The notes under the pieces: model-generated
What the model was told of the DNA's origin: nothing
Seen by the model: the letters and a program-made list of their open reading frames with translations, nothing else
The model's database searches: none
Part shown: positions 1 through 18,685 of the stretch, in pieces
Numbering within the stretch: the stretch's first letter is position 1
How the letters are laid out: each line of letters starts with the position of its first letter
Translations under genes and position numbers: made by a program
NCBI RefSeq assembly: GCF_021730615.1
Contig: NZ_JAJLMN010000001.1
Coordinates: 4,785,501-4,849,500 of the forward strand
DNA: 64,000 bases
Source: Lichenibacterium dinghuense
Lineage (GTDB): Bacteria; Pseudomonadota; Alphaproteobacteria; Rhizobiales; Beijerinckiaceae
Direction: 5' to 3'

Positions 1-654
1 ACGCATGCCGCGATGCCTACGTCAAACTCCGTCGCGGGGAGGGCGTGCGCGGCCTCCCAGACGGAAGGCTCCGCGACTCCGCCACCTGCGACGATGTCGG
101 CACCGACCACGCCGGCGACATGAAGCGGCTCTTTCCGAGCGGAACCGGGCTTGGCCCGCCATCTGCGAATCCCATGCAGATGCTGCCGCCGTGCGTGGCG
201 GGCTGGGCCGGGACGGAGGAGATCTCCTTCCACGACTGATGGGATCGGGCGCGAACCCCTCTCCCACGGCACCGTGTTCGGCCGCGACCCGCCGGCGGAT
301 CCGCGCCCCATCCACGCCGTCGTGGCCGCGCTGTCGGGGCTGATGCACGACGGCGTCGCCGCCGCCAGCGCGCATTTCGAGGATCGGATATGCACGCCCG
401 TACCCTGCCGGAGATCCGACCGTCTCCCGCATGCCCGGGCCCACAAAGGTCGTGGCGGTGAGTGACTGGAGGCGGCGGTGGCCGAGTGCGAGCGCGCGCA
501 CCTTCGCCAGCCGGGCCGAGGCCGGGCGCTTCGGCCGCGCCATGCTGCCCGCGGTGTTCCACGCCGTCGCGGCGTGACCGGCTGCGGCATCGCCCCCCGG
601 AGCCGCGTCCGCATCCCGCGCGTTGAGGGCTGCCCGTCACGCGAGACCGCGCCC
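1..654. other. No recognisable gene
   Basis: Very GC-rich sequence open in several frames on both strands. None of the translations shows a domain, a plausible start with ribosome binding site, or non-repetitive composition; they are dominated by Arg, Pro, Gly and Ala, as expected of noncoding or decayed high-GC DNA. I see no RNA gene or repeat here. A gene running in from the left edge cannot be excluded. Confidence 0.5.
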
Positions 655-936
655 ATGCCCTGGACCGCCATCACCGATCACGACGCCGTCGACAGCGGCA
701 CCATCCTCCGGATCGACAGCGGCTACAGCGACACCCCGCCGCAGAACGGCCACGTCGTCGAGCTCGCGCACGGCGCCACCGGCCGCGTGACGAGCCTCAC
801 GGTGGTGTCGGCCGCCGCCGACCGGCTGGAGCTGACCGACGGGCGGCGGAACTACGAACTCAAGCCCCACGCCGCGACCAAGCCCAACATCCTCGACCCC
901 GACGGCCGCTACCGCGACGCCTGGATCGTGAACTGA
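655..936 (+). CDS. Small hypothetical protein (93 aa)
   Basis: Unrecognised. It encodes a 93-residue acidic, polar protein without signal peptide or membrane segment. The chosen ATG begins at [10 protein letters not shown]; the reading frame stays open upstream but that part is Arg/Pro-rich and looks noncoding. The C-terminal half has alternating polar and hydrophobic residues suggesting a small beta-rich fold. It precedes the acyl-CoA dehydrogenase gene by about 90 bases on the same strand, but nothing links them functionally. Confidence 0.55.
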
Positions 937-1024
937 CACGACAGCCGGCGGCCTTGCATCCTGCGCGGGCCGCCATAGGCTCGGACGCGAGCGAGCGGAG
1001 CCTCGCGGCGGGCGGGGGATCACC

Positions 1025-2203
1025 ATGGTTCAGGGCTCGAACGGCGGCGGGGCGCTCGACTTCGACCTCGGCGAGGACGCCGACCTGATCCGCGACCAGG
1101 TGCGGAGCTTCGCCGAGCACGAGATCGCGCCTCGCGCCGCCGCGGTCGACCGCGACAACGCCTTCCCGGCCGACCTGTGGGCCAAGATGGGCGACCTCGG
1201 GGTGCTCGGCATCACCGTGTCCGAGGACTACGGCGGGACCGGCCTCGGCTACCTCGAACACGTCGTCGCGATGGAGGAGATCTCCCGCGCTTCTGCGTCG
1301 GTGGGGCTGAGCTACGGCGCGCATTCGAACCTCTGCGTCAACCAGATCCACCGCAACGGCTCGGCCGAGCAGAAGGGCCGCTTCCTCGGCCGGCTCGTGT
1401 CGGGCGAGCACGTCGGCGCCCTCGCCATGAGCGAGGCCGGCGCGGGCTCGGACGTCGTCGGCATGACGACCCGCGCCGAGCGGCGCGGCGACCGATTTCG
1501 GCTCAACGGCTCCAAGATGTGGATCACCAACGGGCCGGACGCCCACGTGGTGGTGGTCTATGCCAAGACGGACCCGGAGGCCGGCCCGCGCGGCATCACA
1601 GCCTTCATCGTCGAGCGGGGATGCCCCGGCTTCTCCTCCTCCCCGAAGCTCGACAAGCTCGGCATGCGGGGTTCGAACACCTGCGAGCTCGTCTTCGCCG
1701 ACTGCGAGGTGCCGGCCGAGAACGTGCTCGGCGAGGTCGGGCGCGGCGTCAACGTGCTGATGAGCGGGCTCGACTACGAGCGCGCCGTGCTGGCGGCGGG
1801 GCCGCTCGGCATCATGCAGGCCTGCCTCGACGCCGTGCTGCCCTACGTGCACGAGCGCCGGCAGTTCGGCCGCGCGGTGGGCGAGTTCCAGCTCATGCAG
1901 GGCAAGCTCGCCGACATGTACACGACCCTGAGCGCCGCCAAGGCCTACGTCTACGCCGTGGCCAAGGCCTGCGACCGCGGCCGCACGACCCGCAAGGACG
2001 CGGCCGGCGCCATCCTCTACGCGGCCGAGCGGGCGACCTGGATGGCGCTGGAGGCGATCCAGTGCCTCGGGGGCAACGGCTACACGTCGGACTACCCGAC
2101 GGGGCGCCTTCTGCGCGACGCCAAGCTCTACGAGATCGGCGCCGGCACGAGCGAGATCCGTCGCATGCTCATCGGCCGCGAGCTGTTCGCCGAGACGGCG
2201 TGA
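1025..2203 (+). CDS. ivd: Isovaleryl-CoA dehydrogenase
   Basis: Full-length (392 aa) acyl-CoA dehydrogenase predicted to oxidise isovaleryl-CoA to 3-methylcrotonyl-CoA in leucine degradation, passing electrons from FAD to ETF. The order is the usual N-terminal helical domain, middle beta domain ([12 protein letters not shown], then [10 protein letters not shown]) and C-terminal helical domain ([21 protein letters not shown], ending in an [11 protein letters not shown]-type motif). The assignment to isovaleryl rather than another acyl-CoA rests on [15 protein letters not shown] and on the glutamate in [12 protein letters not shown], at the place where IVD carries its catalytic base. The leucine-pathway partners (mccA/mccB) are not next to it; the tRNA-Leu and the island follow directly. 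Start ATG follows a purine-rich GGGGGAT. Confidence 0.9.
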
Positions 2204-2289
2204 CCCGGCCACCGGCGGCTCGATACCGTCGACGGGAGCCAGGATATCCGAATCGAGATGGGAAGCGCGAGCGGGGCGAAACATCGAAG

Positions 2290-2331
2290 GGGCCGAGCCC
2301 GATCCAAGGCCCTGGCGATCCGGCTCGGCCC
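2290..2331 (+). terminator. Hairpin between ivd and tRNA-Leu
   Basis: A perfect 10-base inverted repeat (GGGCCGAGCC at 2290-2299 and GGCTCGGCCC at 2322-2331) encloses a 22-base loop. It lies about 90 bases after the ivd stop and could end that transcript. No T-run follows, so it is not a standard intrinsic terminator and the role is inferred. Confidence 0.35.
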
Positions 2332-2464
2332 TGCGGAGGCGATGCGTGGACCGCCGTCGGAGCGCGGCGGGGAAGACCTGAGCCGGTGCGGTTTCGAGCG
2401 GCCCCGAAACGGCCCGCGCTGCCGATTGACAGTCCTCCGGCTGCTCCCTAGAAGGTCGGGCAAG

Positions 2465-2549
2465 GCCCTGGTGGCGGAATTGGTAGACGCGCTGGTTTCA
2501 GGTACCAGTGGGTAACACCGTGGAGGTTCGAGTCCTCTCCAGGGCACCA
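2465..2549 (+). tRNA. tRNA-Leu (anticodon CAG), CCA encoded
   Basis: Acceptor stem GCCCTGG (2465-2471) pairs with CCAGGGC (2539-2545), followed by A and the encoded CCA. The anticodon stem CTGGT/ACCAG encloses TTCAGGT with anticodon CAG at 2499-2501. The long variable arm and the length of 85 with CCA fit a leucine tRNA. Its 3' end is the integration site of the island that follows. Confidence 0.96.
2533..2549 (+). repeat. attL: 3' end of tRNA-Leu
   Basis: The 17 bases TCCTCTCCAGGGCACCA closing the tRNA recur exactly at 51867-51883. The tRNA stays intact on this side, as is usual for islands inserted by tyrosine recombinases into tRNA 3' ends, and the integrase starts 86 bases further on. 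Confidence 0.85.
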
Positions 2550-2613
2550 CTCACTTCGCAAGTCATTGTTTTGCGAGGTGAATGAGCAAAATCAGCGACA
2601 TAGGCCAGCCCGA

Positions 2614-2636
2614 GTGATACAATCGGGTGATACAAA
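2614..2636 (+). promoter_or_regulatory. Repeated GTGATACAA, possible integrase arm sites
   Basis: GTGATACAA occurs at 2614-2622 and 2627-2635, between attL and the integrase ATG. The longer form GGTGATACAAA recurs exactly at 51794-51804, about 65 bases inside attR. Repeats of this kind at both ends of a tyrosine-recombinase element could be arm-type binding sites. This is inference; they also overlap the integrase translation start region. Confidence 0.4.
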
Positions 2637-4261
2637 TGGCCCTGCGCATGGCGAGCCCGTTCGAACATCCCAAGACCGGCGTTTTTTGGTTCCGGCGTGG
2701 CGTGCCGAAGGACCTTCAGGCCCTGCTCGGCAAGAAGGAAGAGCTGCTCTCCCTTCGGACCAAAGATCCTGCAGAAGCAAGGGTGCGCTTCGCCGAGGTC
2801 TCAGCCAAGGTGGAAGCGCGATGGGCCAGCCTGCGTCTCGGGCCAAGCTCCCTGACGGAGCGCGAAGCTCACGAGCTGGCAGTTGCCATCCATGACCGAT
2901 GGCTCACGCATCACCTCGACAATCCCAGCGAACCGAGCGGCTGGCGTGCCGATCTGTTTGACCAGCTATGGGCCGAGCCGACCCGCTGGGATCTCAATCG
3001 CCTCATGGCCGATCGAATCCAGGACCTCGCAGTCTCCGTCAGTTCGCCCGCCCGCTCTCAGGAGAACTGGTGCCAGGGCCAAGCTGACGAGCGCTTGGCC
3101 GATCTCGGCCGGGTGGTCGATGCGGCAAGCCGCCTCAAGCTCGCCAAAGCGGTAGCTGCTGCGGTCCAGCGTGCAAGCCAGACGCTCTCGCGCGCGGCAC
3201 TGGGAACCTATCCTGGGCTGCACAGCCCTACTGCAAGCGTATTGTCAGCTCCGCTGGTCTGTCAACCACCCGTTGATTCACGAGCTGTAGCCAGAGAGGC
3301 TCAAGCAAATTTAGCTCTCACTGAATTGTTGAGTGGCTGGTGGGCGGAGGCCAAAGCCACCGGACGGAAAGTGAGCACCTACGACAACTATCGGAATACG
3401 ATTAATAACTTCGTGTCTTTTCTGAAGTTCGACGATGCTACGAAGGTGTCCACCGACGACGTCATAGCGTTCAAGGATTTCCGGCTCAGCACGCCGTCGG
3501 AGCGCACCAACCGGGTCCCGAGCGCGAAAACCGTCAAGGACACCGATCTTGCCGCCCTGAAAACAATCTTCGGCTGGGCAGTCGTGAACAGGAAGTTGGC
3601 AGTCAATCCCGCTGCGAGCGTGACAGTCAGAGTGGGAAAAGCACCGAAGCTTCGATCAAAGGGTTTCACGGAAGGGGAAGCGAAGAAATTGCTCTCCGCT
3701 GCCCTCGCCTACAAGCCGGGGGCTGAACGTGCATGCACGGCCGCTGCGAAGCGCTGGGTTCCCTGGCTCTGCGCCTTCACCGGCGCCCGCGTCGGCGAGA
3801 TTGGCCAGCTACGGAAGCAGGATGTGCGTCGCGAGGGGGACTGGTGGGTGATTCGGATCACGCCCGAGGCAGGCACGGTCAAAACCGATGAGGCGCGAGA
3901 GGTGGTCATCCATTCTCAGGTCGTGAAACTTGGTTTTCCACAGTTCGTATCGCAGAGCGCGGAAGGCCCCTTGTTCCTCCTCCCTGGAAAGCAAGGCGAT
4001 GTGCTCGGGCCACTGCAAGGGCTCAAAAACCGACTCGCGGAGTTCGCTCGTGAGATCGTGACCGATCCGAACGTCGCACCAAACCACGGTTGGAGACACC
4101 GGTTCAAAACCATCGGCATTGAGGCCGGGATAGAAACCCGCGTCCTCGACGCGATTCAGGGTCATGCCGGTCAGTCGGTCTCCGATCGTTATGGCGAGGT
4201 CACTCTTCGAGCGCGAGCGACAGCCATAGAGAAGCTTCCCTGGGTCGATCAGTCAGAGTGA
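2636..4261 (+). CDS. Tyrosine site-specific integrase
   Basis: A 541-residue integrase predicted to move the island in and out of tRNA-Leu. The N-terminal ~90 residues form the small integrase-associated domain beginning MALRMASPFEHP; a SAM-like core-binding domain follows around 220-330 and the catalytic domain around 340-530. Catalytic residues visible in ATG numbering are Arg385 (TGARVGEI), His484 with Arg487 (NHGWRH), His510 (QGHAG) and the nucleophile Tyr519 (SDRYG). The ATG at 2636 is preferred to the in-frame GTG at 2627, which lies in a repeat. The gene is complete and directly follows attL. The stop overlaps an alternative upstream start of the helicase gene. Confidence 0.93.
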   Translation: MALRMASPFEHPKTGVFWFRRGVPKDLQALLGKKEELLSLRTKDPAEARVRFAEVSAKVEARWASLRLGPSSLTEREAHELAVAIHDRWLTHHLDNPSEPSGWRADLFDQLWAEPTRWDLNRLMADRIQDLAVSVSSPARSQENWCQGQADERLADLGRVVDAASRLKLAKAVAAAVQRASQTLSRAALGTYPGLHSPTASVLSAPLVCQPPVDSRAVAREAQANLALTELLSGWWAEAKATGRKVSTYDNYRNTINNFVSFLKFDDATKVSTDDVIAFKDFRLSTPSERTNRVPSAKTVKDTDLAALKTIFGWAVVNRKLAVNPAASVTVRVGKAPKLRSKGFTEGEAKKLLSAALAYKPGAERACTAAAKRWVPWLCAFTGARVGEIGQLRKQDVRREGDWWVIRITPEAGTVKTDEAREVVIHSQVVKLGFPQFVSQSAEGPLFLLPGKQGDVLGPLQGLKNRLAEFAREIVTDPNVAPNHGWRHRFKTIGIEAGIETRVLDAIQGHAGQSVSDRYGEVTLRARATAIEKLPWVDQSE

Positions 4262-4323
4262 TCCCTAGCGCCAGCCAGCTCGTGACCTTTTCCGCCCCCG
4301 ACTCCCATGCGAGGCTGGGTGGC

Positions 4324-6522
4324 ATGACCTCGGTTCCGCTTCAGGCGAGCTCTGCCCCGATCGAGAACCTCGCCGGGCTCGTCGAGCGCGTGACCTTCCA
4401 CAATGAGGAAAACGGCTTCTGCGTGCTGCGGCTCAAAGCCCGCGGGCAGCGCGACCTCGTCACTGTCATCGGGCACGCCGCCATGATCTCGGCCGGCGAG
4501 TGGGTCCAGGCGGCGGGGACCTGGACGAACGACCGCACCCACGGCCTCCAGTTCCGGGCCAACTTCCTGAAGGCAACCGCGCCGACGACGCTCGACGGCA
4601 TCGAAAAGTACCTCGGCTCGGGGATGATCCGGGGTATCGGCCCGGCCTACGCGAAGCGGCTCGTCCGCGCTTTCGGCGAGGCCGTCTTCGATGTCATTGA
4701 GGCCGACCCGAGCCGCCTGCGCGAGGTCGAGGGCATCGGCCCCGTCCGGGCGCAGCGTATCGCCGCGGGCTGGGCCGAGCAGAAAGTCGTACGCGAGATC
4801 ATGCTGTTCCTGCACGCCCACGGGGTGGGGACGAGCCGGGCAGTGCGGATCTACAAGACCTACGGCGCCGAGGCCGTCGCGACCATCACGGAAAACCCCT
4901 ATCGGCTCGCGCGCGACATCCGCGGCATCGGCTTCAAGACAGCGGACCAAGTGGCGGTGCGGCTCGGCATCGCCAAGGATGCCATGGTGCGGGTGCGGGC
5001 GGGGGTGAGTTACGCGCTCGCCGAGGCGATGGATGAGGGCCACTGCGGCCTGCCCGAGGACGACCTCTTGCGCACCGGCGCCGAGCTGCTGGAGGTCATG
5101 GGCGAGCGCCTCACCGCCGCCCTGGCGCTGGAGCTTGCGGACGGCGCCGTGGTGGCTGACGCGGTCGGGGAGCGCCGGTGCGTGTTCCTCGCCGGCCTGT
5201 ACCATGCCGAGCGGGACATCGCCGAACGACTCCGGGCGCTCGCGGCCGGCGAAACGCCCTGGCCTGCCATCGACGTCGAGCGGGCCGTGCCGTGGCTGGA
5301 GGGTCGCGCCGGGATCACCCTCGCCCCGAGCCAGCGCGAGGCCCTCCGCCTCGCTGCGGCGAGCAAAGCCCTCGTCATCACCGGCGGGCCAGGGGTCGGC
5401 AAGACGACCCTCGTCAACTCGATTCTGAAGATGCTCGTGGCGAAGGGCGTCGCGGTCGCGCTCTGCGCCCCGACGGGCCGTGCCGCGAAGCGGCTGACGG
5501 AGAGCACGGGCGTCGAGGCCAAGACGATCCACCGCCTGCTGGAGACCGACCCAAAGAACGGCGGCTTCAAGCGCGACGAGGCGAACCCGCTCGCCTGCGA
5601 CCTGCTCGTGGTCGACGAGACGTCGATGGTGGACGTGCTGCTGATGCGGGCGCTCCTGCGCGCCCTGCCGTCACGGGCCGGGCTGCTGCTCGTCGGCGAC
5701 GTGGATCAACTCCCCTCGGTCGGGCCAGGGCAGGTCCTCGCCGACGTGATCGGCTCCGGCGCCGTGCCGGTGGTGCGGCTGACGGAGGTGTTCCGGCAGG
5801 CCGCGACGAGCCGCGTCATCGTCAACGCTCACCGCATCAACGCTGGGCAGATGCCCGAGGTGACGCCGGCCGGGGCCGAACGGAGCGACTTCTATGTCGT
5901 CGACGCGGCCGAGCCGGAGGTGGCCGTGGCCAAGGTGCTCGCCGTCGTCCGCGAGCGCATCCCGCGCGCTTTCGGCCTCGATCCCGTGCGAGACGTGCAG
6001 GTGCTCTGCCCGATGAACCGCGGCGGCGTCGGCGCCCGCTCGCTCAACGTCGAACTCCAGCGCGCCCTGAACCCGCCGGGCGAGGTCCGAGTCGAGCGCT
6101 TCGGCTGGACCTACGGGCCGGGCGACAAGATTATGCAGATCGAGAACGACTACGACAAGGAGGTGTACAACGGCGACCTCGGCCTCGTGGCCCGGATCGA
6201 CGCGGAGGCGGGCGAGCTGGTCGCGACCTTCGATGGGCGCGAGGTGGTCTACGGCTTTGGCGAGCTGGACGCTCTGGTCCTGGCGTACGCCACAACGGTC
6301 CACAAAGCCCAGGGGTCGGAGTACCCGGCGGTGGTCATCCCAGTCATGACCCAGCACTACGCCATGCTGGCCCGCAACCTCCTCTACACGGGCGTGACCC
6401 GGGGCAAGCGGCTTGTCGTGTTGGTGGGCCAGCGCAAGGCCATCGCGATGGCGGTCCGAAACGGTGGGCAGCGCCGGCGGTGGTCGAAGCTAGGCGAGTG
6501 GCTCGCGCCAGTGCACGCCTAG
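4324..6522 (+). CDS. RecD-like ATP-dependent DNA helicase (RecD2 type)
   Basis: A 732-residue superfamily 1B helicase, expected to unwind DNA 5' to 3' without RecB or RecC. The N-terminus carries an OB-like region, then helix-hairpin-helix segments (MIRGIGPAYAKRL and IGPVRAQRIAAG). Walker A GGPGVGKTT lies near residue 356 and a Walker B-type VVDETSMVD near 430. QLPSVGPGQVLADV and, near the C-terminus, YATTVHKAQGSEYP are helicase motifs. The ATG at 4324 gives the usual family start (LAGLVERVTFHNEENGFCVL); a GTG at 4258 overlapping the integrase stop would add 22 residues. It sits directly behind the integrase, which suggests a role in element maintenance or repair, but RecD2 genes also occur on chromosomes. 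Confidence 0.9.
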   Translation: MTSVPLQASSAPIENLAGLVERVTFHNEENGFCVLRLKARGQRDLVTVIGHAAMISAGEWVQAAGTWTNDRTHGLQFRANFLKATAPTTLDGIEKYLGSGMIRGIGPAYAKRLVRAFGEAVFDVIEADPSRLREVEGIGPVRAQRIAAGWAEQKVVREIMLFLHAHGVGTSRAVRIYKTYGAEAVATITENPYRLARDIRGIGFKTADQVAVRLGIAKDAMVRVRAGVSYALAEAMDEGHCGLPEDDLLRTGAELLEVMGERLTAALALELADGAVVADAVGERRCVFLAGLYHAERDIAERLRALAAGETPWPAIDVERAVPWLEGRAGITLAPSQREALRLAAASKALVITGGPGVGKTTLVNSILKMLVAKGVAVALCAPTGRAAKRLTESTGVEAKTIHRLLETDPKNGGFKRDEANPLACDLLVVDETSMVDVLLMRALLRALPSRAGLLLVGDVDQLPSVGPGQVLADVIGSGAVPVVRLTEVFRQAATSRVIVNAHRINAGQMPEVTPAGAERSDFYVVDAAEPEVAVAKVLAVVRERIPRAFGLDPVRDVQVLCPMNRGGVGARSLNVELQRALNPPGEVRVERFGWTYGPGDKIMQIENDYDKEVYNGDLGLVARIDAEAGELVATFDGREVVYGFGELDALVLAYATTVHKAQGSEYPAVVIPVMTQHYAMLARNLLYTGVTRGKRLVVLVGQRKAIAMAVRNGGQRRRWSKLGEWLAPVHA

Positions 6523-6534
6523 AGTTGCTGCTAT

Positions 6535-6798
6535 TCAAGCTCGGCCGTATGCGTCGCAGCCGGCGAATGCAAAGTAGTTGCGGCACTCGTCGGGTTCAAA
6601 TCGGGTGTTTGCATTCCGGATTAGCCGCTCGCGCATGTCTAGCGACAAGGCTCCCATCATCATGCTCTCCGTGGTCACGACACCATGGAAACATAACCAC
6701 GATCTTCCCACTACCTCACCCGCCTCAGCTACAAAGGCAGCGGCTCTAGCGGGGGCGCTGTGGTGCTCGTGGTAAATTAAGCTGCTGACGCACCTCAC
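6535..6798 (-). CDS. Possible small protein behind the HEPN gene (87 aa)
   Basis: Unrecognised reading frame of 87 codons starting inside the last 53 bases of the HEPN-like gene and ending 12 bases from the helicase stop. Its composition is less Arg/Pro-skewed than antisense frames nearby, with a mixed sequence (for example SWLCFHGVVTTES and FEPDECRNYFAFAG) that looks protein-like, and the region is lower in GC than its surroundings. The long overlap and lack of a clear ribosome binding site count against it. If real, it would be translated together with the HEPN protein. Confidence 0.35.
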   Translation of the reverse strand: MRCVSSLIYHEHHSAPARAAAFVAEAGEVVGRSWLCFHGVVTTESMMMGALSLDMRERLIRNANTRFEPDECRNYFAFAGCDAYGRA

Positions 6799-7627
6799 CA
6801 GACATATGAATGTTTTCGGCAGCCCATTCCCTGAGCTGCTCCACTATTTGCAAATTTAAAGGCGACCTGTCGATCTGAGCCAAGCGGACAAGGTGATTGT
6901 GAAGGGGAGATCCATGTAGGTGCTCCCCGCCGAAGCTGCTTTCGCCCTCGGTGCGCGTCTCGAAAAAGGCGAAATTCATGCTGGTGAATGCGTCGCGAAG
7001 CGCACGGCTCTGGCCGACTTGATAGCGCTCGACGAATAGCCGCTCCAGCAATCGTGAGGGATCGATCATCCAATCTTGGATATCGGCCATTTGATCATGG
7101 AACATAAGGCCGGCGCTTTGATGGGCGAAGAGGTCGCCTCCGGTCAGATTTACTGCCCGCATAAGGCGGCGAAAGGCGCAGCACAAGATGTCGAGCGCGT
7201 GCAGCACCGGCCCATTCACGAAAGTGCCTTCGAATGCATATCGATTGTCGGGCGATCCATATCTCGCAAGGTATTCGATATAAAGAGCGGTCGTCTGGCC
7301 TTGCCAGCGTTCGCGACCTCTCGCTGTTGTTTCTGGAAGATCGAGCGAGTCAGGGATAATATTCTGCGGATCGTTCTGACGCACATCACGAAATAAGCGC
7401 ATAAGATCGTGACCGTAATTCTGCGCATGCCAGTCCTGGAGAAGCAACAGCGCCTTCAAATACTTCTCGCATGCTTGCCCTGCGCACCAGTAGAATACAT
7501 GAAACAAGCCATTGGCATAGGCAGACCGAGCCGTGACATAGTCCTCATCGGCCGGATCAATGTGCAGTCGCAGTGTCAGATCGATCTTCCGATCAGAGAG
7601 GCTCATCTCTAGTGGGGACCTCGACAT
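6746..7627 (-). CDS. HEPN-like domain protein
   Basis: A 293-residue soluble protein. Residues about 30-85 (ARSAYANGLFHVFYWCAGQA, then CEKYLKALLLL and YGHDLMRLF) match the HEPN pattern of a helix ending in QA-x-EKxLKA followed by a short HDL motif. HEPN proteins are often ribonucleases or adaptors in toxin-antitoxin and antiphage systems. I do not see the canonical R-x4-6-H active site, so a binding or regulatory role is as likely as RNA cleavage. The C-terminal 190 residues are unrecognised. The start has GGAG 11-14 bases upstream. It is co-directional with the glycine-rich gene (75-base gap), and the DNA is clearly lower in GC than the flanks, which suggests separate acquisition. Confidence 0.65.
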   Translation of the reverse strand: MSRSPLEMSLSDRKIDLTLRLHIDPADEDYVTARSAYANGLFHVFYWCAGQACEKYLKALLLLQDWHAQNYGHDLMRLFRDVRQNDPQNIIPDSLDLPETTARGRERWQGQTTALYIEYLARYGSPDNRYAFEGTFVNGPVLHALDILCCAFRRLMRAVNLTGGDLFAHQSAGLMFHDQMADIQDWMIDPSRLLERLFVERYQVGQSRALRDAFTSMNFAFFETRTEGESSFGGEHLHGSPLHNHLVRLAQIDRSPLNLQIVEQLREWAAENIHMSGEVRQQLNLPRAPQRPR

Positions 7628-7702
7628 CTCAATATATCTCCAGAGTCATCGCAAAAATTAATTGCACAGATTGTGATTGGAGCGACACTCTACGATTGAA
7701 TA

Positions 7703-8476
7703 CTAGTCATCAATGAATTCATACTCGTCATCAAGTACACTGGCGCGCCACCGGTGCCCTCCTACTTCAAGCTGCTCGTTGATCCATGCGAGTGAAACCA
7801 CCTCGCGATCCCACCAGACCTCATAAAGGGGTAAACCCCGATTCGCAAAGTAGCGTTTCTTCAATTCCTCGACGATCAGCCTCCGTGCCTTATACTGAGG
7901 AGTATCTGGCGCGTCCCCGCCACGCCCCGGCTCCGTCACCGCTTCATAGTAGGGCCAACGCATATGCGCACGCCGCCGAGAGCCGAGGAGACCCGCGAGA
8001 TCATCCGGCATGTGTGCGCGACCTCCACGTCCCCCGCGACCTCCTGGCTGTGAGGATTCTCCGCCCTGACCACCGGCCGAAAACGAATTGTCACCAACGG
8101 CAAAGCCGTCCCCACCTTTTCCACTCTCGCCACCATTCTGACCGCCACGCGCCAGCAGAATAATTTTGCCATCAATCGAGATATGGGTGTCACCCGGCCC
8201 AATCGGCGGGTCGAGTTTGTCACTGTTTGCATGCTCATCCAAGCAAGTACCCACGGGAAGGACGTGACCATCACCGCCTCTTCCTCCCGGACCGATGCCA
8301 CCACGCCCACCCCGTCCACCAAGAGCGAGACTTCGGTCAGCGGCGACGGTCGCTTGACCACCATCGCCGCCCTTGCCGAAAACGGCATCACCGCCGGAGC
8401 CGCCTTCCGCAGAGCTATCATCTCCGGTTACGCTAGCATCACCGCCACGCCCACCGGAAGCCTTCTGCCTGACCAT
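7703..8476 (-). CDS. Glycine-rich repeat protein with conserved C-terminal domain
   Basis: A 257-residue protein. Residues 8-59 form a glycine-rich module of GGxGG units, followed by further GGRGG and GGQGG blocks to about residue 155. The C-terminal ~90 residues change to an ordinary globular composition (YKARRLIVEELKKRYFANRG, then YEVWWDREVVSLAWI). No signal peptide or membrane segment is visible. The first module aligns without gaps with the C-terminus of the membrane protein at 8799-9155 (32 of 52 identical by eye). The ATG at 8476 with an upstream purine stretch is preferred to a GTG at 8500. It diverges from the small gene at 8506. Function unknown; the module could form polyglycine-II-like helices for assembly. 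Confidence 0.7.
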   Translation of the reverse strand: MVRQKASGGRGGDASVTGDDSSAEGGSGGDAVFGKGGDGGQATVAADRSLALGGRGGRGGIGPGGRGGDGHVLPVGTCLDEHANSDKLDPPIGPGDTHISIDGKIILLARGGQNGGESGKGGDGFAVGDNSFSAGGQGGESSQPGGRGGRGGRAHMPDDLAGLLGSRRRAHMRWPYYEAVTEPGRGGDAPDTPQYKARRLIVEELKKRYFANRGLPLYEVWWDREVVSLAWINEQLEVGGHRWRASVLDDEYEFIDD

Positions 8477-8505
8477 AAGCTTACTCTTTAAGGAGATCAC
8501 GTTCG

Positions 8506-8802
8506 ATGGATGAAAACCAGATCGTGGATGGCCTGTCGCTCCGAGTATGGCAAGCGGTCTTTCGGCCCGGCATGGCTGAGTTTGCGGCTACAACGTTTGT
8601 CTTCACGCGCGAGTCGAATGATTTCGTTCGCATCGCCTTCGGGAATGCTGGGCCAAGGATCGATGCCGCAGGGGGAAGAGAACCTGTATACACTCATGCT
8701 GTGACACTCACGCCAGAAATGGCCGTGGACTTAGCCGGCCTGTTGCTGAAGCACTTTGCGGAGCCAACTAGCCAGCGTAGCTCTTCCAGCGCGGAGCTTT
8801 AG
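8506..8802 (+). CDS. Small protein, DUF3467-like shape (98 aa)
   Basis: A 98-residue soluble protein with a good ribosome binding site (AAGGAGATCACGTTCG before ATG). The pattern FVFTRESNDFVRIAFGNAGP followed by HAVTLTPEMAVDLAGLLLKH resembles the DUF3467 family, small proteins in which a beta hairpin is followed by a helix; the match is by eye and weak. It is transcribed divergently from the soluble glycine-rich gene, with 29 bases between the starts, and its stop overlaps the stop of the membrane glycine-rich gene by four bases. This tight packing suggests that the genes belong to one cassette. Confidence 0.6.
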   Translation: MDENQIVDGLSLRVWQAVFRPGMAEFAATTFVFTRESNDFVRIAFGNAGPRIDAAGGREPVYTHAVTLTPEMAVDLAGLLLKHFAEPTSQRSSSSAEL

Positions 8803-9155
8803 CCCCGTCCACCATCTCCTCCGCGAGCGATAGATCGCTTGCCTTTGGCAATCGCTGAACCTCCGGCACCTCCATCGCCCCACCCTGCGTCTCCACCGCT
8901 TCCGCCCGTTGCTTCACTATCCACTCCGAACGCCGAGGCGCGGCCACCTGCACCGCCTTGGAGACGGTCTTCCTGCTTTCTTTGGTAGGCGAGGTATATG
9001 GCCCATGCGACAAGTAGGATCGCGACGATCACCCCGACTACGGACGCCCATTCAGGAAGGGTGGCCCAAAATTTTGCAAGTGCGAGACCTAAAAGCACAC
9101 CGGCTGCGCCGAGTGCCAATGGTATCCAGATCGTTGAATTTTTCCCAGAGTTCAT
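8799..9155 (-). CDS. Two-helix membrane protein with glycine-rich tail
   Basis: A 118-residue protein with two hydrophobic segments (about residues 9-30 and 36-56) and a C-terminal glycine-rich module, residues 67-118. With two membrane helices and a basic Lys/Arg patch after the second (AYQRKQEDR), the tail is predicted to face the cytoplasm. The tail matches residues 8-59 of the neighbouring soluble glycine-rich protein position by position with no gap. Such a shared module could let the soluble partner assemble at the membrane. No family recognised. The upstream ribosome binding site is modest (GGGTCAGTGG). Confidence 0.68.
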   Translation of the reverse strand: MNSGKNSTIWIPLALGAAGVLLGLALAKFWATLPEWASVVGVIVAILLVAWAIYLAYQRKQEDRLQGGAGGRASAFGVDSEATGGSGGDAGWGDGGAGGSAIAKGKRSIARGGDGGRG

Positions 9156-9340
9156 TCCACTGACCCTTTCACAGCGAACGAGGTGAGGAACGGCGCACTC
9201 CGATTGAGCACCTCAGGGTATACCCCAGCGTGACGTCACGCCGAGCGCTGGAGCTGGCGTCACTCCTGGGTGGCTGATGCGAGTCACGTGACGCGGCCCG
9301 CGTCGGGCCTAAACCCCGATGTGACGCCCGGCGCCGTCGC

Positions 9341-10054
9341 TCAGGCCCGGGCCACCCACCCCCGCCATGTGAAGGCGGCGTAGAACAGCTCAACGTCGTG
9401 GAAGCCGGCATGGGCTAGGATTGCCGCATCGTCCTCGGGCGTGAGGGCGGGCAAGTGCGCGTCGACCGCAGCACGGGCCTTTCCAGGCTGCTCGGGATCG
9501 GCCCCCGACGCGACGGCAAAAGCCTCGTAGCGGGCGAGCCAGCGCGAGCGCGCCCCGTCGCCCTGGGGGAAGCTGCCGTGCGCCGCGACGAACGGCGCGC
9601 CCGACCGCAGCCGGCGGTGGATGGCCTGCACGGTCGTCTCGCGTTCGGCGGCCTCCAGGAAGTGCAGGGTCAGCAGGCAGGTCGCGGCATCGAAGAGGCC
9701 GGCCGGCGCGGCCTCGATGTACCCCTCGACCAGCGTCACCCGCTCCATGGCGGGGCCGAGCACCCGTTCTGCCTCCCGCAGCATCTCCCGCGCCGGGTCG
9801 ACGCCGACGAAGGTCTAACCGGGGTGCGCCTCGGCCAACACGTCGAGTTCCAGGCCGCCGCCGGCGCCGAGCACGAGGACCCGGGCGTCCTCTGGCGTGC
9901 CTTCGGCCAACAGCAGGCTCGTCATCCGGTGGAGGGCGTCGAAGCCCGGCACGTAACGGCGCGGCCCCTCCGCGTACTTCGCGACGGCCACGGGATCGTT
10001 GAAGGCGGCGACGAAATCCAGGGCGCCCGTTGCATCCTCAGGCGGCATCGGCAT
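9341..10054 (-). pseudogene. SAM-dependent methyltransferase interrupted by an amber codon
   Basis: The reading frame begins at 10054 with a strong ribosome binding site (GAGGAGA) and encodes a class I methyltransferase: YAEGPRRYVPGFDALHRM, then the SAM-binding motif VLVLGAGGGLELDVL. At 9815-9817 a TAG interrupts the frame between HPG and TFVGVDPAREML, where the second half of the Rossmann motif continues in the same frame to 9341 (DAATCLLTLHFL and onward). Many homologues have an aromatic residue there, so a single TGG-to-TAG change is the simplest explanation. An internal ATG at 9784 could give only the C-terminal part, without the SAM glycine loop. Functional only if the amber codon is read through. 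Confidence 0.75.
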
Positions 10055-10218
10055 GTCTCTCCTCGTGGCTGACCCTACGCCCGTCTGGCGGGGCATGGAA
10101 GCCGGCGCTGAGCCGGCGGGCCGTGACGTCAGCCGACCGGGTCGACGATCTGTTCGACGAGGCCCGTTCGCGGCTCGCTCCGGGGTGTCATCACGCGCAG
10201 GCCGAGAGATTTCCCGCC

Positions 10219-10953
10219 TCACCGCAGCTCGCGCTCGAAGAACGCCAGCATCTCCCGCCACCCACGCTCTGCGGCGGCCTCGTCGTAGACGGGGAAGTCG
10301 GGGTTCATCCAGCCATGGGGGGCCGGGTAGGTTTCGGCCTGGAACGGGACGCCGGCCTCGCGCAGCGCCGTCTCCAGCCGCTCGGCCATCGCGGGCGGGT
10401 AGCTGGCATCGTTCGTCGCGGCCGCGATGTACAGGCTCGCGGCGAGCTGCGGCGCGTAGGTGTGCGGGCTGTCCGGCGCGTCGGTGGCGAGGTTGCCGCC
10501 GTGGAGGCTCGCGACGGCAGCGAACCGCTCCGGATGCGTCCCGGCGGCGGCGATGGCCATGCCGCCGCCCATGCAGAAGCCGACGGCGCCCACCTTCGAT
10601 CCCTCCACGTCGCGGCGCGTGTCGAGGTAGGTGAGGACGGCACCGGCGTCCTGCGCGGCCTTCGCATTGCCGGTGGTCGCCATCAGGGGGCCGAGCACCG
10701 CGCGGAAGTCGCCCCGCAGCACCTCGACCGGGTCGAAGGGGCCGTAAGCGCCGTAGCGGTAGAAGAGGTCCGGCACGAGCACGAGATAGCCGGCGTCGGC
10801 CAGCCGCTGCGCCATGGCGAACACGGCCGGACGGATGCCGCCCGCGTCCATGAAGAAGATGATGGCGGGTGCGGTCTCATGCGCCTCGGCGGTGAACACG
10901 GAGGTCGGACAGCGACCGTCCGGGGTGGTGAGCACGACATCTTCACGCGGCAT
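10219..10953 (-). CDS. Dienelactone hydrolase family protein
   Basis: A 244-residue alpha/beta hydrolase of the dienelactone hydrolase family. The nucleophile is Cys in VGFCMGGGMA (about residue 127), as in true dienelactone hydrolases rather than serine esterases. The acid is probably in ATNDASYP and the histidine in APHGWMNPDFPVYD near residue 205. DLH enzymes open dienelactones in chloroaromatic degradation, but many members act on other esters, so the substrate is open. It is transcribed divergently from the MarR-family gene at 11085, a common arrangement for a stress- or aromatic-induced hydrolase under MarR control. Confidence 0.85.
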   Translation of the reverse strand: MPREDVVLTTPDGRCPTSVFTAEAHETAPAIIFFMDAGGIRPAVFAMAQRLADAGYLVLVPDLFYRYGAYGPFDPVEVLRGDFRAVLGPLMATTGNAKAAQDAGAVLTYLDTRRDVEGSKVGAVGFCMGGGMAIAAAGTHPERFAAVASLHGGNLATDAPDSPHTYAPQLAASLYIAAATNDASYPPAMAERLETALREAGVPFQAETYPAPHGWMNPDFPVYDEAAAERGWREMLAFFERELR

Positions 10954-11033
10954 CGGGGCAGCCTCTAGAGCGAGCGGGTGCGGGGAGAGTGGCTGGCGGC
11001 GTCGTGGTCAAAGGAGCGACGGCCTTCATTTAT

Positions 11034-11048
11034 ATATGTAGATATGTA
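11034..11048. promoter_or_regulatory. Direct repeat ATATGTA-G-ATATGTA, possible MarR operator
   Basis: In the 131-base gap between the divergent hydrolase and MarR genes, an AT-rich stretch in otherwise GC-rich DNA holds two copies of ATATGTA separated by one base, with a further TATAT just before. Its place 36 bases before the MarR start makes it a candidate operator and promoter element for both genes. It is not a clear palindrome, so the assignment is tentative. Confidence 0.35.
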
Positions 11049-11084
11049 TCCGTTAGCTGATGGCCGGGATGAGAGCAAGGACAC

Positions 11085-11537
11085 ATGGGCGAGGGTGAGA
11101 ACGTCTTGAGGACGCCGGGGCACCTCGTTAGCCTCGCAGCCCGTGGGTTCGCGCGCCTGAGCGAGGCGAGGTTGAAGCCTCTCGGCTTCGGTGTCGGCCA
11201 CCTGCCGGTCCTAGTCGCCCTGCGGGATGGAGACGCCAGCACGCAACGCGACTTGGCCCGCTTCGCGCGGATTGAGCAGCCGCCCATGGCGCAGATGCTC
11301 GGCCGAATGGAGCGGGACGGCCTCATCCGCCGGACACCGCATCCGAAGGACGGCCGCAGCCAGCGCGTGGCGCTGACGGCGGCGGCGCTCGCACGCCTGC
11401 CGGAGGCGATCGCCGTCCTGGTCCAGGGCAGCAGCGATGCACTAACCGGGTTCACCGAAGCCGAGGTCCAGGAGTTCATTGACCTACTCACGCGGCTCCT
11501 CGCCAACCTCGACCGCCTGACGGCGGCTCGCCCCTGA
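11085..11537 (+). CDS. MarR-family transcriptional regulator
   Basis: A 150-residue winged-helix regulator. The DNA-binding region lies around residues 50-95: LARFARIEQPPMAQMLGRME (helix-turn-helix) and LIRRTPHPKDGRSQRVALT (the wing, with the conserved D-x-R-S pattern). Helices at both ends would form the dimer interface. Members usually repress a neighbouring gene and release DNA when they bind an aromatic compound or oxidant. Divergent placement suggests control of the dienelactone hydrolase family gene at 10219-10953 and of itself. Confidence 0.88.
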   Translation: MGEGENVLRTPGHLVSLAARGFARLSEARLKPLGFGVGHLPVLVALRDGDASTQRDLARFARIEQPPMAQMLGRMERDGLIRRTPHPKDGRSQRVALTAAALARLPEAIAVLVQGSSDALTGFTEAEVQEFIDLLTRLLANLDRLTAARP

Positions 11538-11627
11538 CCGACGACGTGATGGCCGGCCGGAGCGGGTTGACGCCGCCTATTGCCGGTGTGGTTTGTGTGG
11601 TGGGCCTATACCCTGAGGTGACAAACC

Positions 11628-12173
11628 ATGGCCCGCATCGGTTACGCCCGCGTCAGCACGCTCGACCAGGACCTCGACGGCCAGCTCGCCAAGCTCAAAG
11701 CCGAAGGTTGCGGGGTGATCCGCTCGGAGAAGGTGTCGGGTGGCAGCCGTGACGGCCGCACCGAGTTGGCGACCGTGCTGGAGTTTCTGCGCCCTGGCGA
11801 TGAGCTGGTGGTGACCCGCCTCGACCGGCTCGGGCGCGACACCCGCGACGTCCTCAATTTGATCCATGAAGCCGAGCAGCGCGGCGCCTTCGTCACCGTG
11901 CTCGACCCGCACGTCTCGACGCGCGGCGAGATGGGCCACCTCGTCCTTACCGTCCTCGGCATGGTCGCCCAGATGGAGCGCCGCTTCATCCGGGAACGGC
12001 AGCGCGAGGGCATCGCGCGGGCAAAGAGCGAGGGCGCTTACGCCGGCGGCAAGCGGCGCCTCGACCGCGAGCGCATCAGGGCGCTGCACGCGGCTGGCAG
12101 CGGCCCCGCTGTCATCGCCCGGGAAGTCGGCTGCTCGCGCATGCAAGTTTATCGCGTGCTGCAAGAACGGTGA
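11628..12173 (+). CDS. Serine recombinase (resolvase/invertase family)
   Basis: A 181-residue small serine recombinase. The N-terminal catalytic domain has the nucleophile Ser in YARVSTLDQD (about residue 10) and the conserved arginines in VTRLDRLGRDTRDV; the long E helix follows (MGHLVLTVLGMVAQMERRFIRERQ). The C-terminal ~45 residues are a Hin/resolvase-type HTH (ALHAAGSGPAVIAREVGCSRMQVYRVL). It may be a resolvase from a lost transposon or a DNA invertase. It lies 24 bases from the stop of convergent hsdS, but I saw no inverted repeats inside hsdS that would support phase variation. Confidence 0.9.
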   Translation: MARIGYARVSTLDQDLDGQLAKLKAEGCGVIRSEKVSGGSRDGRTELATVLEFLRPGDELVVTRLDRLGRDTRDVLNLIHEAEQRGAFVTVLDPHVSTRGEMGHLVLTVLGMVAQMERRFIRERQREGIARAKSEGAYAGGKRRLDRERIRALHAAGSGPAVIAREVGCSRMQVYRVLQER

Positions 12174-12197
12174 AGTTCTGAGGGTTGAGGAAGACCA

Positions 12198-13499
12198 TCA
12201 GAGCAGGGCCGACTGAGGAGGGCGACTGCGACGCCTTCCCGCTGGGGCTTTGTCCCTCGTGCCTGTGATCCGTTTTAGTAGAGCACTCGCAGGTTCGTCA
12301 GCCGAGTCTTGCGGCACAAGCTCGCCCCGGAATGCCTGCGCGAGAACGGCCCGATCTAAGTGAGCGATGAGCTTGCGGGCGCTGGTGGCCTCGGCGGCGA
12401 GGCGGTCGATCCAAGCCAAAGCGGTCTCGATGCGGCTCAAAACCTTCGCCTGCTCGCGAAGCTGCGGCAAGGGAACTTTGATACGGTTTAACGCCGCCTG
12501 AGTTAGCTTCGGCTGTGCGGAGCCCGTGACATATGGCGAGAGATCTATCGAGTTGAGGAACCAAGCCAACCATGCATTCGAGCATGATACGTGAGCACGA
12601 AGAACATGCGCATGGTTGTTCACCCAAAACCGATCCTTGGCAAGGAAGGCTATGGGCGTACTTCTGGACAGAAGATTAGCTCCATCCTCTCCAATCAATA
12701 CATACTCGCCATCAAACAAAAAATCATCTATACTATCAATTATTCCGGAAGCTCCATAATAAGGGTATGTGCCCCTCCGAGTTGCGCGCTCTGATGCGCG
12801 GATCGGAATCCTGCGACCATCCAAATTTTCAGCCGCTTCGGCAATCGTGACTATAGACCATGTTGGCTGCGGATTGTTGAATCGCCAATTTTCGGTCAGG
12901 TCGCCATTGAAAGCAGCTTTCAAGATTGCTTTCTTATACTTCTCGACCAGCCTCGCCACGTGGTCGAGCTGGTCGCGAGCTCGCTTCGATCTAGCCGATA
13001 AACTGTCAATCTTGGCGCCGATCCGGCGCTGTTCTCCGCTCGGCGGCAGGGGAAGGGATATGTTCTGGAGAGCCTCACGCGGCAGATGCTTAATCGTCGT
13101 GCCAGTGAAATGGTCCTGCAGCGTGCCGTCCCGAGCCATGAGCCAGAGATACCGAGCGAGCCAGTCCGGGCTAATGCCCTCTTCCGTACGTACACGCAGA
13201 ATGGCTTTCTGGAACTTAAGATCGGTCGGGCCTGACCGCCACACCGCCGCTCGGCCCGGCTCGCCCCCCTCGCAAACAAGCACATCGCCATCGCGGATGG
13301 AGAACTTCGCCCGCTCCTCAAACGACATTGGCATAGTTAGAACGTGCGAGGTATCCATCTCGCCCCATCTTACGTTGATGTTGCGCAGATAGGGTGTAGG
13401 ATCGCCCGAGTTCTTGGCTTTGTCGAGCATCTTTCCGAGTTGTATATCGGCGACAGCTTCAAACCGGGTGGTGGTCCAGCCTAGAGGTAGGTCACTCAT
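12198..13499 (-). CDS. hsdS: Type I restriction-modification specificity subunit
   Basis: A 433-residue HsdS that determines the DNA target of the type I complex. Two target-recognition domains occupy about 1-150 (starting LPLGWTTTRFEAVADIQLG) and 215-370 (PQPTWSIVTIAEAAENL). Each is followed by a conserved coiled-coil spacer: LPLPPSGEQRRIGAKIDSL and VPLPQLREQAKVLSRIETAL. The repeated TRD/spacer layout is intact, so a bipartite recognition site is expected. Its start overlaps the hsdM stop by four bases (ATGA). The first TRD region is visibly lower in GC than hsdM and hsdR, as commonly seen when TRDs are exchanged. Confidence 0.92.
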   Translation of the reverse strand: MSDLPLGWTTTRFEAVADIQLGKMLDKAKNSGDPTPYLRNINVRWGEMDTSHVLTMPMSFEERAKFSIRDGDVLVCEGGEPGRAAVWRSGPTDLKFQKAILRVRTEEGISPDWLARYLWLMARDGTLQDHFTGTTIKHLPREALQNISLPLPPSGEQRRIGAKIDSLSARSKRARDQLDHVARLVEKYKKAILKAAFNGDLTENWRFNNPQPTWSIVTIAEAAENLDGRRIPIRASERATRRGTYPYYGASGIIDSIDDFLFDGEYVLIGEDGANLLSRSTPIAFLAKDRFWVNNHAHVLRAHVSCSNAWLAWFLNSIDLSPYVTGSAQPKLTQAALNRIKVPLPQLREQAKVLSRIETALAWIDRLAAEATSARKLIAHLDRAVLAQAFRGELVPQDSADEPASALLKRITGTRDKAPAGRRRSRPPQSALL

Positions 13500-15001
13500 T
13501 CCGCTGCCTCCGGCAGCATCGCAACCGGCTGCTCGTCGCTCTCCACCTCATCCGACAGCGCCTCGATGTCGGCGAGCGCGGCGCGCAGGTGCCCAATGAT
13601 CGCCGCCGCGATGTCCTCAGGCTCAGTCAGCCCCTCCTCGGCGTCAGCCTCCGTGTCGCGCAGCCACGCAATGTCGAGGTTGTCGTTGCGCGCCGCGACC
13701 TGCTCGCGCGTGAAGCAGCGGAATCGACCAGCCTCGCCCTCGTCCCGGCGCACCGCCCCACCGTTCGGGTCATCGCCGTAGACGGCCTCGAAGGCTGCGA
13801 AGTCCGTCACGGTCAGCGGGCGTGTCTTGCCGTAGGCAGGCTGATCGGCGCGCAGGTCGTAGACCCACACAGCCTTCGTGCTGCCCCGGTCCGTCGTGCC
13901 GCGTCGCAAAAACAAGACGTTGGTTTTCACGCCCTGCGCGTAAAAGATGCCGGTCGGTAGGCGCAGGATCGTGTGCAGGTCGCATAGCTCCATGAGCCAC
14001 GTCCGCAGTCGGCGGCCCGTGTTGTCCTCGAACAGCACATTATCGGGAACCACGACGGCTGCTCGGCCGCCGGGCTTCAACGCCCGCACGATGTGCTCGA
14101 CGAAAGCTAGCTGCTTGTTCGAGGTGTCGGCTGTAACCGAGAAGTCCGTGCGCGTTGGCCGCCCGCCGCCCTTCTTCGTGCCGAAGGGCGGGTTTGACAG
14201 AATCAGGTCCGCGCTCTTCAGCCCTTCGCCGTCAGGCGAGAGCGTGTCGGCGCTCATCACCCCGCCCTCGATGCCGTGCAGCATCAGGTTCATGAGGCAG
14301 AGCCGATGCGTGTCGGGCACCAGCTCTGCGCCGTGGAACGCACCGTGGCGCTGGAAAAACTGCCGAGCTTCCGGCAACGTGTATAGATCGTCGGTAGCCG
14401 CCTTCACGTACTGGTCGGCCGCGACCAGGAAACCACCCGTGCCGGCGGCCGGGTCTTGCACTACTTCGCCCGCGCGGGGTCTCATGAGCCGGACGATGCA
14501 GTCGATGAGCGGACGCGGGGTGAAGTACTGCCCCGCTCCAGATTTCTTCTCGGCCGCATTCTTCTCAAGCAGACCCTCGTAGAGGTTACCGAGGCCCTCC
14601 TCGCGCGCCGAGTACCAGTCCAACCGGTCGATGGCGGACGTGAGCGCCTTCAAGTTCGTGGGCTTCCTCAGCCGGGTCTGAGCGTCAGCGAAGATCGCCC
14701 GCACGAGATCGTCGGCTGCCCGCGTCGGATCGCCGAGTTCGACCAACATCCTGCGGTAGGAAGTCAGTTGCTCTTCACCCTCGCGCCGGGCAAGATCGCC
14801 CCAGCGGCAGCCCTCGGGAAGCCGAGCCTCGCGCAGAGCTCCGTCTCCACCGCGCACCTCGGCCATCATCTTGAGGAAAAGCAGATAGGTCAGCTCCGTG
14901 ACGTATTCGTTGTAGGTGATCCCGTCGTCGCGCAGCACGTGGCAGAGCGACCAGAGCTTGGCGACGATGTCGGTGGTGGTGGGGCTTTGTGGGCTGATCA
15001 T
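13496..15001 (-). CDS. hsdM: Type I restriction-modification DNA methyltransferase subunit
   Basis: A 501-residue N6-adenine methyltransferase. After an N-terminal helical domain (AKLWSLCHVLRDDGITYNEY), the SAM-binding motif I DPAAGTGGFL lies near residue 183 and the catalytic NPPFGT (motif IV) near 268. YFTPRPLIDCIV just before motif I is typical for HsdM. With HsdS it methylates the host target. Start and stop overlap its neighbours by four bases each, so R, M and S are translated as a coupled set. Length is normal for the family and no key residue is missing. Confidence 0.95.
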   Translation of the reverse strand: MISPQSPTTTDIVAKLWSLCHVLRDDGITYNEYVTELTYLLFLKMMAEVRGGDGALREARLPEGCRWGDLARREGEEQLTSYRRMLVELGDPTRAADDLVRAIFADAQTRLRKPTNLKALTSAIDRLDWYSAREEGLGNLYEGLLEKNAAEKKSGAGQYFTPRPLIDCIVRLMRPRAGEVVQDPAAGTGGFLVAADQYVKAATDDLYTLPEARQFFQRHGAFHGAELVPDTHRLCLMNLMLHGIEGGVMSADTLSPDGEGLKSADLILSNPPFGTKKGGGRPTRTDFSVTADTSNKQLAFVEHIVRALKPGGRAAVVVPDNVLFEDNTGRRLRTWLMELCDLHTILRLPTGIFYAQGVKTNVLFLRRGTTDRGSTKAVWVYDLRADQPAYGKTRPLTVTDFAAFEAVYGDDPNGGAVRRDEGEAGRFRCFTREQVAARNDNLDIAWLRDTEADAEEGLTEPEDIAAAIIGHLRAALADIEALSDEVESDEQPVAMLPEAAE

Positions 15002-18420: not shown

Positions 18421-18446
18421 CAGCGGACCGCCCCTTGAGCTTGACG

Positions 18447-18644
18447 TTAAAGCCGAGCGACGCGATCCGCAACGCGAACGGGTGTACCCCCTGTCGCGCC
18501 GAGCAGCAGGTTGAGGCCGAAAACGGCCCAACGCTGCAAGTGGCGGCGCTGGAAGGCGACGAGCGACGGAAGCAGGAACAGCGACCAGAGTGCAGCGACT
18601 CCGGTTGCCAGACAGATAAGGAAGGCGATCTTGGTCGTTAGCAC
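18447..18644 (-). CDS. Small membrane protein, possibly truncated superinfection-immunity type
   Basis: A 65-codon frame with two hydrophobic stretches, about residues 5-28 and 42-52. The spacing FLLPSLVAFQRRHLQRWAVF followed by GLNLLLGATG resembles superinfection-immunity family membrane proteins, in which a second helix with a GW motif should follow. Here the frame turns polar after GATG and stops, so the gene may be truncated or shifted. The start is a GTG without a clear ribosome binding site. It lies just before hsdR on the same strand. Recognition is by eye and uncertain. Confidence 0.35.
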   Translation of the reverse strand: MLTTKIAFLICLATGVAALWSLFLLPSLVAFQRRHLQRWAVFGLNLLLGATGGTPVRVADRVARL

Positions 18645-18685
18645 GCCGCGCCCGACTGCGCTGCTGTCGATTCCCTACGACTATC

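Follow-up and report, generated by a model that had tools for sequence, protein, structure and literature searches.

A rare three-gene cassette encodes a predicted membrane protein and a soluble protein that share a 28-residue glycine-rich repeat

The window analyzed here is a stretch of 64,000 nucleotides from Lichenibacterium dinghuense (contig NZ_JAJLMN010000001.1, positions 4,785,501 to 4,849,500), in which three small genes, termed B, D, and A, lie side by side. Gene B (8799 to 9155, minus strand), identified by its open reading frame, hydropathy, and homologues, encodes a 118-amino-acid membrane protein. Two hydrophobic segments, with hydropathy peaks near residues 9 to 27 and 38 to 56, precede a C-terminal glycine-rich module of two repeats 28 residues apart (residues 67 to 118; 8802 to 8957, minus strand). 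After the last hydrophobic segment come several basic residues, a feature also of the prophage fusion protein described below. Gene A (7703 to 8476, minus strand), identified by its open reading frame and relatives, encodes a 257-amino-acid soluble protein; the ATG at 8476 was preferred to the GTG at 8500 as the start because relatives begin at about the former. Protein A consists of an N-terminal module, again with two repeats 28 residues apart (residues 8 to 59; 8300 to 8455, minus strand), further GGxGG blocks, an insert of about 50 amino acids that is absent from one homologue (locus L014), and a C-terminal domain (about residues 171 to 257; 7703 to 7966, minus strand). Residues 8 to 59 in this numbering correspond to residues 16 to 67 of the 265-amino-acid reading frame that begins at the GTG. 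Between B and A, on the opposite strand, lies D (8506 to 8802, plus strand), which encodes 98 amino acids. Across all six pairs of loci compared, variation in each of A, B, and D is greatest at third codon positions; D therefore evolves as a true coding gene would.

The C-terminal domain of A carries a conserved motif, W-I-N-x2-L-E-x2-G-x2-W-R, and was modeled with AlphaFold2 on an alignment of four sequences. This model has a mean pLDDT of 74.7, with residues 1 to 15 of the piece below 50, and predicts a long helix, a short helix, a helix, and two strands, in that order. The full-length model of A is poor (pLDDT, 39.9), and its module region, at about 50 to 57, contains short strands that do not amount to a confident fold. 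Foldseek searches with the C-terminal domain matched no solved structure confidently (best E, 0.4; TM-score, 0.20), nor any viral model (best E, 0.13). Some of the weak matches, all at an E value of 0.4 or worse, are to what we take to be winged-helix proteins of the ScpB and ArsR types, and the order of secondary structure is compatible with a winged helix at that level of match. None of A, B, and D matched a Pfam family at the cut-off. The membrane part of B showed likeness to DUF2157 and to holins below the cut-off (E values of 0.0012 and 0.0038; Phage_holin_5_2 scored 17.9 bits, below its cut-off of 29.2) and matched the holin family PHROG 4237 at an E value of 0.0076. Such weak likeness is common for small two-helix proteins and may offer a possible lead to a membrane-active role. 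Searches of PADLOC-DB 2.0.0 gave no match for A or D, and the best for B had an E value of 0.17. No structured RNA was found at gathering scores between 6500 and 9600 of the window. A promoter scan gave no more matches than expected by chance.

According to the earlier note, the modules of A and B align over 52 residues without a gap and with 32 identities, and this was borne out by recounting. The identities comprise 19 glycines and 13 other residues, and this register has the top score across all ungapped offsets of 52 residues. When all residues of the B module were shuffled, the maximum was 23 identities in 5,000 trials. When only the nonglycine residues were shuffled and A was allowed to slide, 32 identities were reached in 1 of 5,000 trials. 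With the glycines held and the register fixed, the observed count was reached in 1 of 20,000 trials for the window, and in 0, 3, and 0 of 20,000 for the homologous loci L004, L005, and L014, respectively. Compared with 73 other glycine-rich frames from the fetched sequences, the B module reached at most 16 of 52 identities. Two glycine-rich phage proteins, labeled tail-fiber-like by eye, reached 21 identities to the B module and 22 to the A module.

Each module is composed of two 28-residue repeats with an approximate consensus of GGxGGxAxxxGxxSxAxGGxGGxAxxGx, so that GGxGG blocks recur at spacings of 17, 11, and 17 residues, beginning at residues 8, 25, 36, and 53 of A and residues 67, 84, 95, and 112 of B. 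This register is identical in nine proteins, namely, the A and B proteins from four loci plus the fused protein. Module identities over the 52 residues are 33 to 40 among A proteins, 32 to 38 among B proteins, 27 to 34 between A and B, and 26 to 30 between the fusion and either. By sequence, the modules tend to group by kind, with L014 not separating cleanly. Since all four cassettes carry both forms, the A form and the B form are probably older than the spread of the cassette. In the window, the DNA identity between the two modules is 55%, and the same codon is used at 10 of the 32 identical residues. Given these differences in codons, the modules are not the product of a recent duplication, and their likeness has probably been kept by selection. 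A DNA motif describing the repeat geometry matched all nine known modules. Among viral contigs it matched only three: the prophage with the fusion and the two that encode the tail-fiber-like proteins.

The order B, antisense D, A is intact in all four confirmed split-A loci: the window, Kaistia adipata (L004), Niveispirillum (L005), and genome G531 (L014). Relative to the window, A is 71% identical in Kaistia adipata and 66% identical in Niveispirillum, and B is 68%, 64%, and 47% identical in L004, L005, and L014, respectively. The cassettes are 1,294 to 1,465 bp long. In every locus, B and D share 4 bp at their stops, and D and A begin 29 bp apart in the window, 31 bp in L004, 32 bp in L005, and 23 bp in L014. 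The cassette has a lower GC content than its flanks in all four loci: GC fractions of 0.590 (window), 0.580 (L004), 0.531 (L005), and 0.541 (L014) compare with 0.655, 0.669, 0.654, and 0.609 in the respective flanks. When positions 1 to 20000 of the window and the other loci were compared by blastn (E ≤ 1e-5), all matches between loci fell inside the cassette to within 2 bp; the match to Kaistia spanned only 7716 to 9157, and the window and L014 gave no match. The flanks share no similarity, and the four sites are unrelated. The flanking genes searched encode an MFS transporter, an epimerase, and Kup in L004; a DUF4175 protein, RadC, and an aminopeptidase in L005; and a transhydrogenase and an AraC regulator in L014, where two more genes had no match. 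Save for those two, these neighbors are ordinary and differ between the loci, and defense-type neighbors are clear in the window only. The earlier note had treated A and B as partners and had held that rare adjacency of their homologues would speak against this; the two are neighbors in four of four split-A loci and are joined in the prophage fusion.

In the window, a RecD-like helicase gene (4258 to 6522) and a HEPN gene lie on one side of the cassette, and a type I restriction system is nearby. A tRNA-Leu gene (2465 to 2549), a DUF6538 tyrosine integrase gene (2627 to 4261), and the RecD-like gene together look like the edge of an island, and the tRNA-Leu 3'-end repeat, searched as a boundary, has no other copy in the window. 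Between 2500 and 4000, the GC fraction falls to about 0.60. The specificity, methyltransferase, and restriction subunits of the type I system are encoded at 12198 to 18531 (minus strand), adjoining a resolvase gene at 11628 to 12173.

Relatives are few. A scan of a genome collection returned two, Kaistia adipata and Niveispirillum. When 397 genomes of the order were searched with a profile, six gave matches at an E value of ≤0.01: the source genome itself, G790, G531, G772, and two weak ones; the G790 locus (L015) was taken to be the same as that of Kaistia, the two contigs being equal in length (66115), and was counted once. Only the source genome was found with the D profile in the class (1 of 289 genomes) and with the C-terminal-domain profile in the class (1 of 385) and the phylum (1 of 398). 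Searches with A in the family (2 of 149) and with the domain profile in the genus (2 of 6) each added one weak match (G042, L003, and G054, L008). Within the family of G531, the D profile found G531 itself only (1 of 8), and within that of G772, the domain profile found G772 itself only (1 of 18). These genome draws overlap and a limited number of candidates were scored at the first pass, so the counts do not denote strict absence. The weak matches in G042, G054, G438 (L011), and G484 (L013) were dropped as relatives; in these four loci, no frame cut at stops matched the profiles of the A C-terminal domain, B, D, or the module at E values up to 10. Of 150 genomes of the order searched with a module profile (E ≤ 1e-4), 2 were matched, the source genome and G531, each exactly twice, once in A and once in B. 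Both were already in the profile, and so this result shows rarity rather than new members. No matches were obtained by tblastn in plasmids with A, D, B, the L014 A, or the fusion; by tblastn in phages with the A C-terminal domain, the fusion, the L014 D, or the L005 A; or in viral scans with A, D, B, the L014 A, or the domain profile. A viral scan with the fusion found its own contig only. Five independent examples are known in all, and none of the literature matches listed, judged by titles and starts of abstracts and mostly outside subscription journals and preprints, describes a B-D-A cassette. B-D-A is apparently a rare mobile cassette that has not been described.

The fifth example joins A and B in one chain. 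A prophage of genome G772 encodes a 204-amino-acid protein (L016, 4330 to 4944, minus strand) with a membrane segment, the module, and an A-type C-terminal domain; in order, it has a single hydrophobic stretch, then basic residues, the two repeats (at residues 47 and 75), and a C-terminal part. It was first detected weakly, at an E value of 0.00139 in one genome of 397, and was accepted despite this because its three parts agree. From the second hydrophobic segment of B through the module, it is 45% identical to B over 80 residues (pairwise E, 0.001). Its C-terminal part is identical to the A domain at 19 of 70 positions (pairwise E, 1e-7), a match that hhalign scores at a probability of 93% and an E value of 2.7e-7. 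The same protein occurs at 100% identity in viral contig L017, and L017 and L030 were counted as the same element as L016. Searches of the fusion found no Pfam family at E values up to 1, with neither DUF4041 nor a nuclease domain detected, and no match in PADLOC-DB 2.0.0. The gene is antisense to its neighbors, which encode the portal on one side and the head protease on the other. That slot is a usual one for genes expressed from a prophage. Among frames of 40 amino acids or more within 49 kb, none encodes D; therefore, D is not essential to the fusion version. As a separate observation, the portal protein of this prophage (L016, 2441 to 4324, plus strand) carries a C-terminal anti-CBASS Acb1 domain (PF23474; E, 1.8e-42; residues 474 to 622), a counterdefense domain fused to a structural protein.

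From the results that were computed directly, namely, the conserved gene set and its geometry, the repeat register, the fusion, and the unrelated genomic sites, we infer a topology for B, an interaction of A with B, mobility of the unit as such, and a function. Because A and B occur together in four of four loci, are fused in the prophage, and keep a common register, the data support the view that they work together at the inner membrane. Basic residues mark the cytoplasmic side of a membrane protein (the positive-inside rule). Since such residues follow the last hydrophobic segment, B would be embedded in the inner membrane, and its C-terminal repeats would lie in the cytoplasm. Soluble A would then pair or coassemble with B through the homologous repeats, which would hold the C-terminal domain of A at the membrane face; in the prophage version, a single polypeptide would do the same. 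D would most likely be a partner or regulator of A and B, and its antisense overlap may give it control over their expression as well. Taken as a whole, the best explanation, to which we assign a probability of about 0.5, is a mobile B-D-A cassette in which the repeats allow B to tether A at the membrane.

As for function, the spread is patchy, the sites are unrelated, one version lies in a prophage, and defense-type genes adjoin one locus. Because of these features, a defense role is plausible, and a phage-related role, that is, exclusion or defense at the membrane, is tentatively put forward as the likeliest biological role. A bolder possibility, which we regard as doubtful, is a membrane-tethered conflict system of a new class: the matched repeats of anchor and soluble protein would act as a zipper that assembles an effector or sensor at the inner membrane, encoded in a 1.4-kb unit with an antisense third gene, and the one-chain version would serve temperate phages in excluding other phages.

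Tethering by repeats may also belong to a housekeeping device for envelope stress, membrane organization, or regulation rather than to defense. The ordinary genes in the searched flanks of three of the four loci and the lack of a PADLOC match below an E value of 0.1 fit this reading, and the helix-helix-helix-hairpin model of the C-terminal domain, with its weak winged-helix matches (E, 0.4 or worse), would allow DNA binding by a protein held at the membrane. However, a conflict-type gene would better explain the rare and patchy spread, the unrelated sites, and the prophage copy, and we judge the housekeeping alternative to have a minority chance. Less likely again is a toxin-antitoxin-like unit, with A and B as a membrane-active toxin and antisense D as a protein or antisense-RNA antidote. 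Such a unit would account for the small size and unrelated sites, for the subthreshold holin likeness of B, and for the geometry of D, whose stop overlaps that of B and whose start lies 23 to 32 bp from that of A in all four loci; yet the prophage fusion has the A and B parts with no D in 49 kb, and no toxin family was matched at the cut-off.

The two remaining alternatives concern the modules and the extent of the unit. Glycine-rich repeats can serve as flexible linkers, and the poor full-length model of A (pLDDT, 39.9) would suit modules that are a mere low-complexity repeat, common to two neighbors that do not interact through it. This is improbable, as the register and the nonglycine positions are kept in nine proteins, the exact motif occurs in only three viral contigs (the fusion and two tail-fiber-like proteins), and the fusion unites the same parts. 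A wider defense cassette, in which a HEPN gene and a DUF3467-like gene would act with A and B, had been suggested in the earlier note and is largely refuted, leaving it with only a very slight chance. The HEPN gene of the window (6746 to 7627, minus strand; 293 amino acids; PF05168 at residues 21 to 88; E, 1.7e-7) does adjoin A on the same strand; the long remainder of its product has no Pfam cover at E values up to 1, and its GC content is below that of the surroundings. However, it lies outside the unit aligned between loci, and tblastn of 16.7 to 18.0 kb around the cassettes of L004, L005, and L014 found no HEPN match in any of the three, whereas the window copy was recovered as a positive control. 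A search of the two whole genomes L004 and L005, run without a positive control, gave no match either. HEPN was dropped from the system as a neighbor found, among the four loci, in the window only. In L014, a 206-amino-acid protein adjoining B (10781 to 11401, minus strand) has a helical look that is HEPN-like by eye only; searches of Pfam (E up to 1) and of PADLOC gave no match for it, and it is not similar to the window HEPN protein (best pairwise E, 3.2). The DUF3467 identity of D was likewise abandoned: none of the four D proteins matched a Pfam family at E values up to 10, hhalign gave a probability of 0.15% against a DUF3467 profile of two proteins only, and PF11950 had no match in the source genome, which holds D.

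Three proteins with no entry at the cut-off in the libraries searched are now linked by a conserved layout and a natural fusion. Whether glycine repeats zip a soluble partner to a membrane anchor is therefore directly testable with three small genes, and the strict 28-residue repeat is a clean target for structural work on glycine-rich folds. If the link to phage is true, the cassette would add a membrane-tethered exclusion or defense system that similarity-based catalogs have missed.

Several known systems resemble parts of this arrangement. The phage adhesin gp38 has a polyglycine sandwich at the phage tail tip in which many short glycine-rich motifs are set apart by short variable segments; glycine exceeds 50% of the residues, and runs such as GGGGGGGG occur (PMC6851490). 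The modules resemble it in this alternation of motifs and segments. They differ in containing 37% (A) and 40% (B) glycine and in their strict 17/11 spacing of GGxGG, and the module profile matched no solved chain in the PDB at E values up to 0.1; polyglycine-II folding of the module is possible. The antisense placement of D between same-strand B and A is reminiscent of the noncontiguous operon menE-menC-MW1733-ytkD-MW1731 of Staphylococcus aureus, where same-strand genes flank an opposite-strand gene (PMC7154746). The geometry fits in four of four loci, although the B-D-A genes are unrelated to those of the S. aureus operon. For the membrane tether, a close layout is that of Kiwa, in which the small membrane protein KwaA brings the soluble DNA-binding protein KwaB to the inner membrane in a repetitive membrane assembly (PMC12904381). 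B and A would share this two-part layout and the repetitive assembly. In contrast to Kiwa, A, B, and D match no PADLOC model at E values below 0.1. We know of no repeat common to KwaA and KwaB, and to our knowledge an antisense third gene such as D is unlike Kiwa. SNIPE is a membrane-bound antiphage nuclease (PMC12904381); the prophage fusion resembles it in joining a membrane segment and a presumably cytoplasmic domain in a single chain. The fusion differs in that no DUF4041 or nuclease domain was detected in it (Pfam, E up to 1). The cassette is not claimed as a member of either system; Kiwa and SNIPE do show that a membrane-tethered defense layout is workable (PMC12904381).
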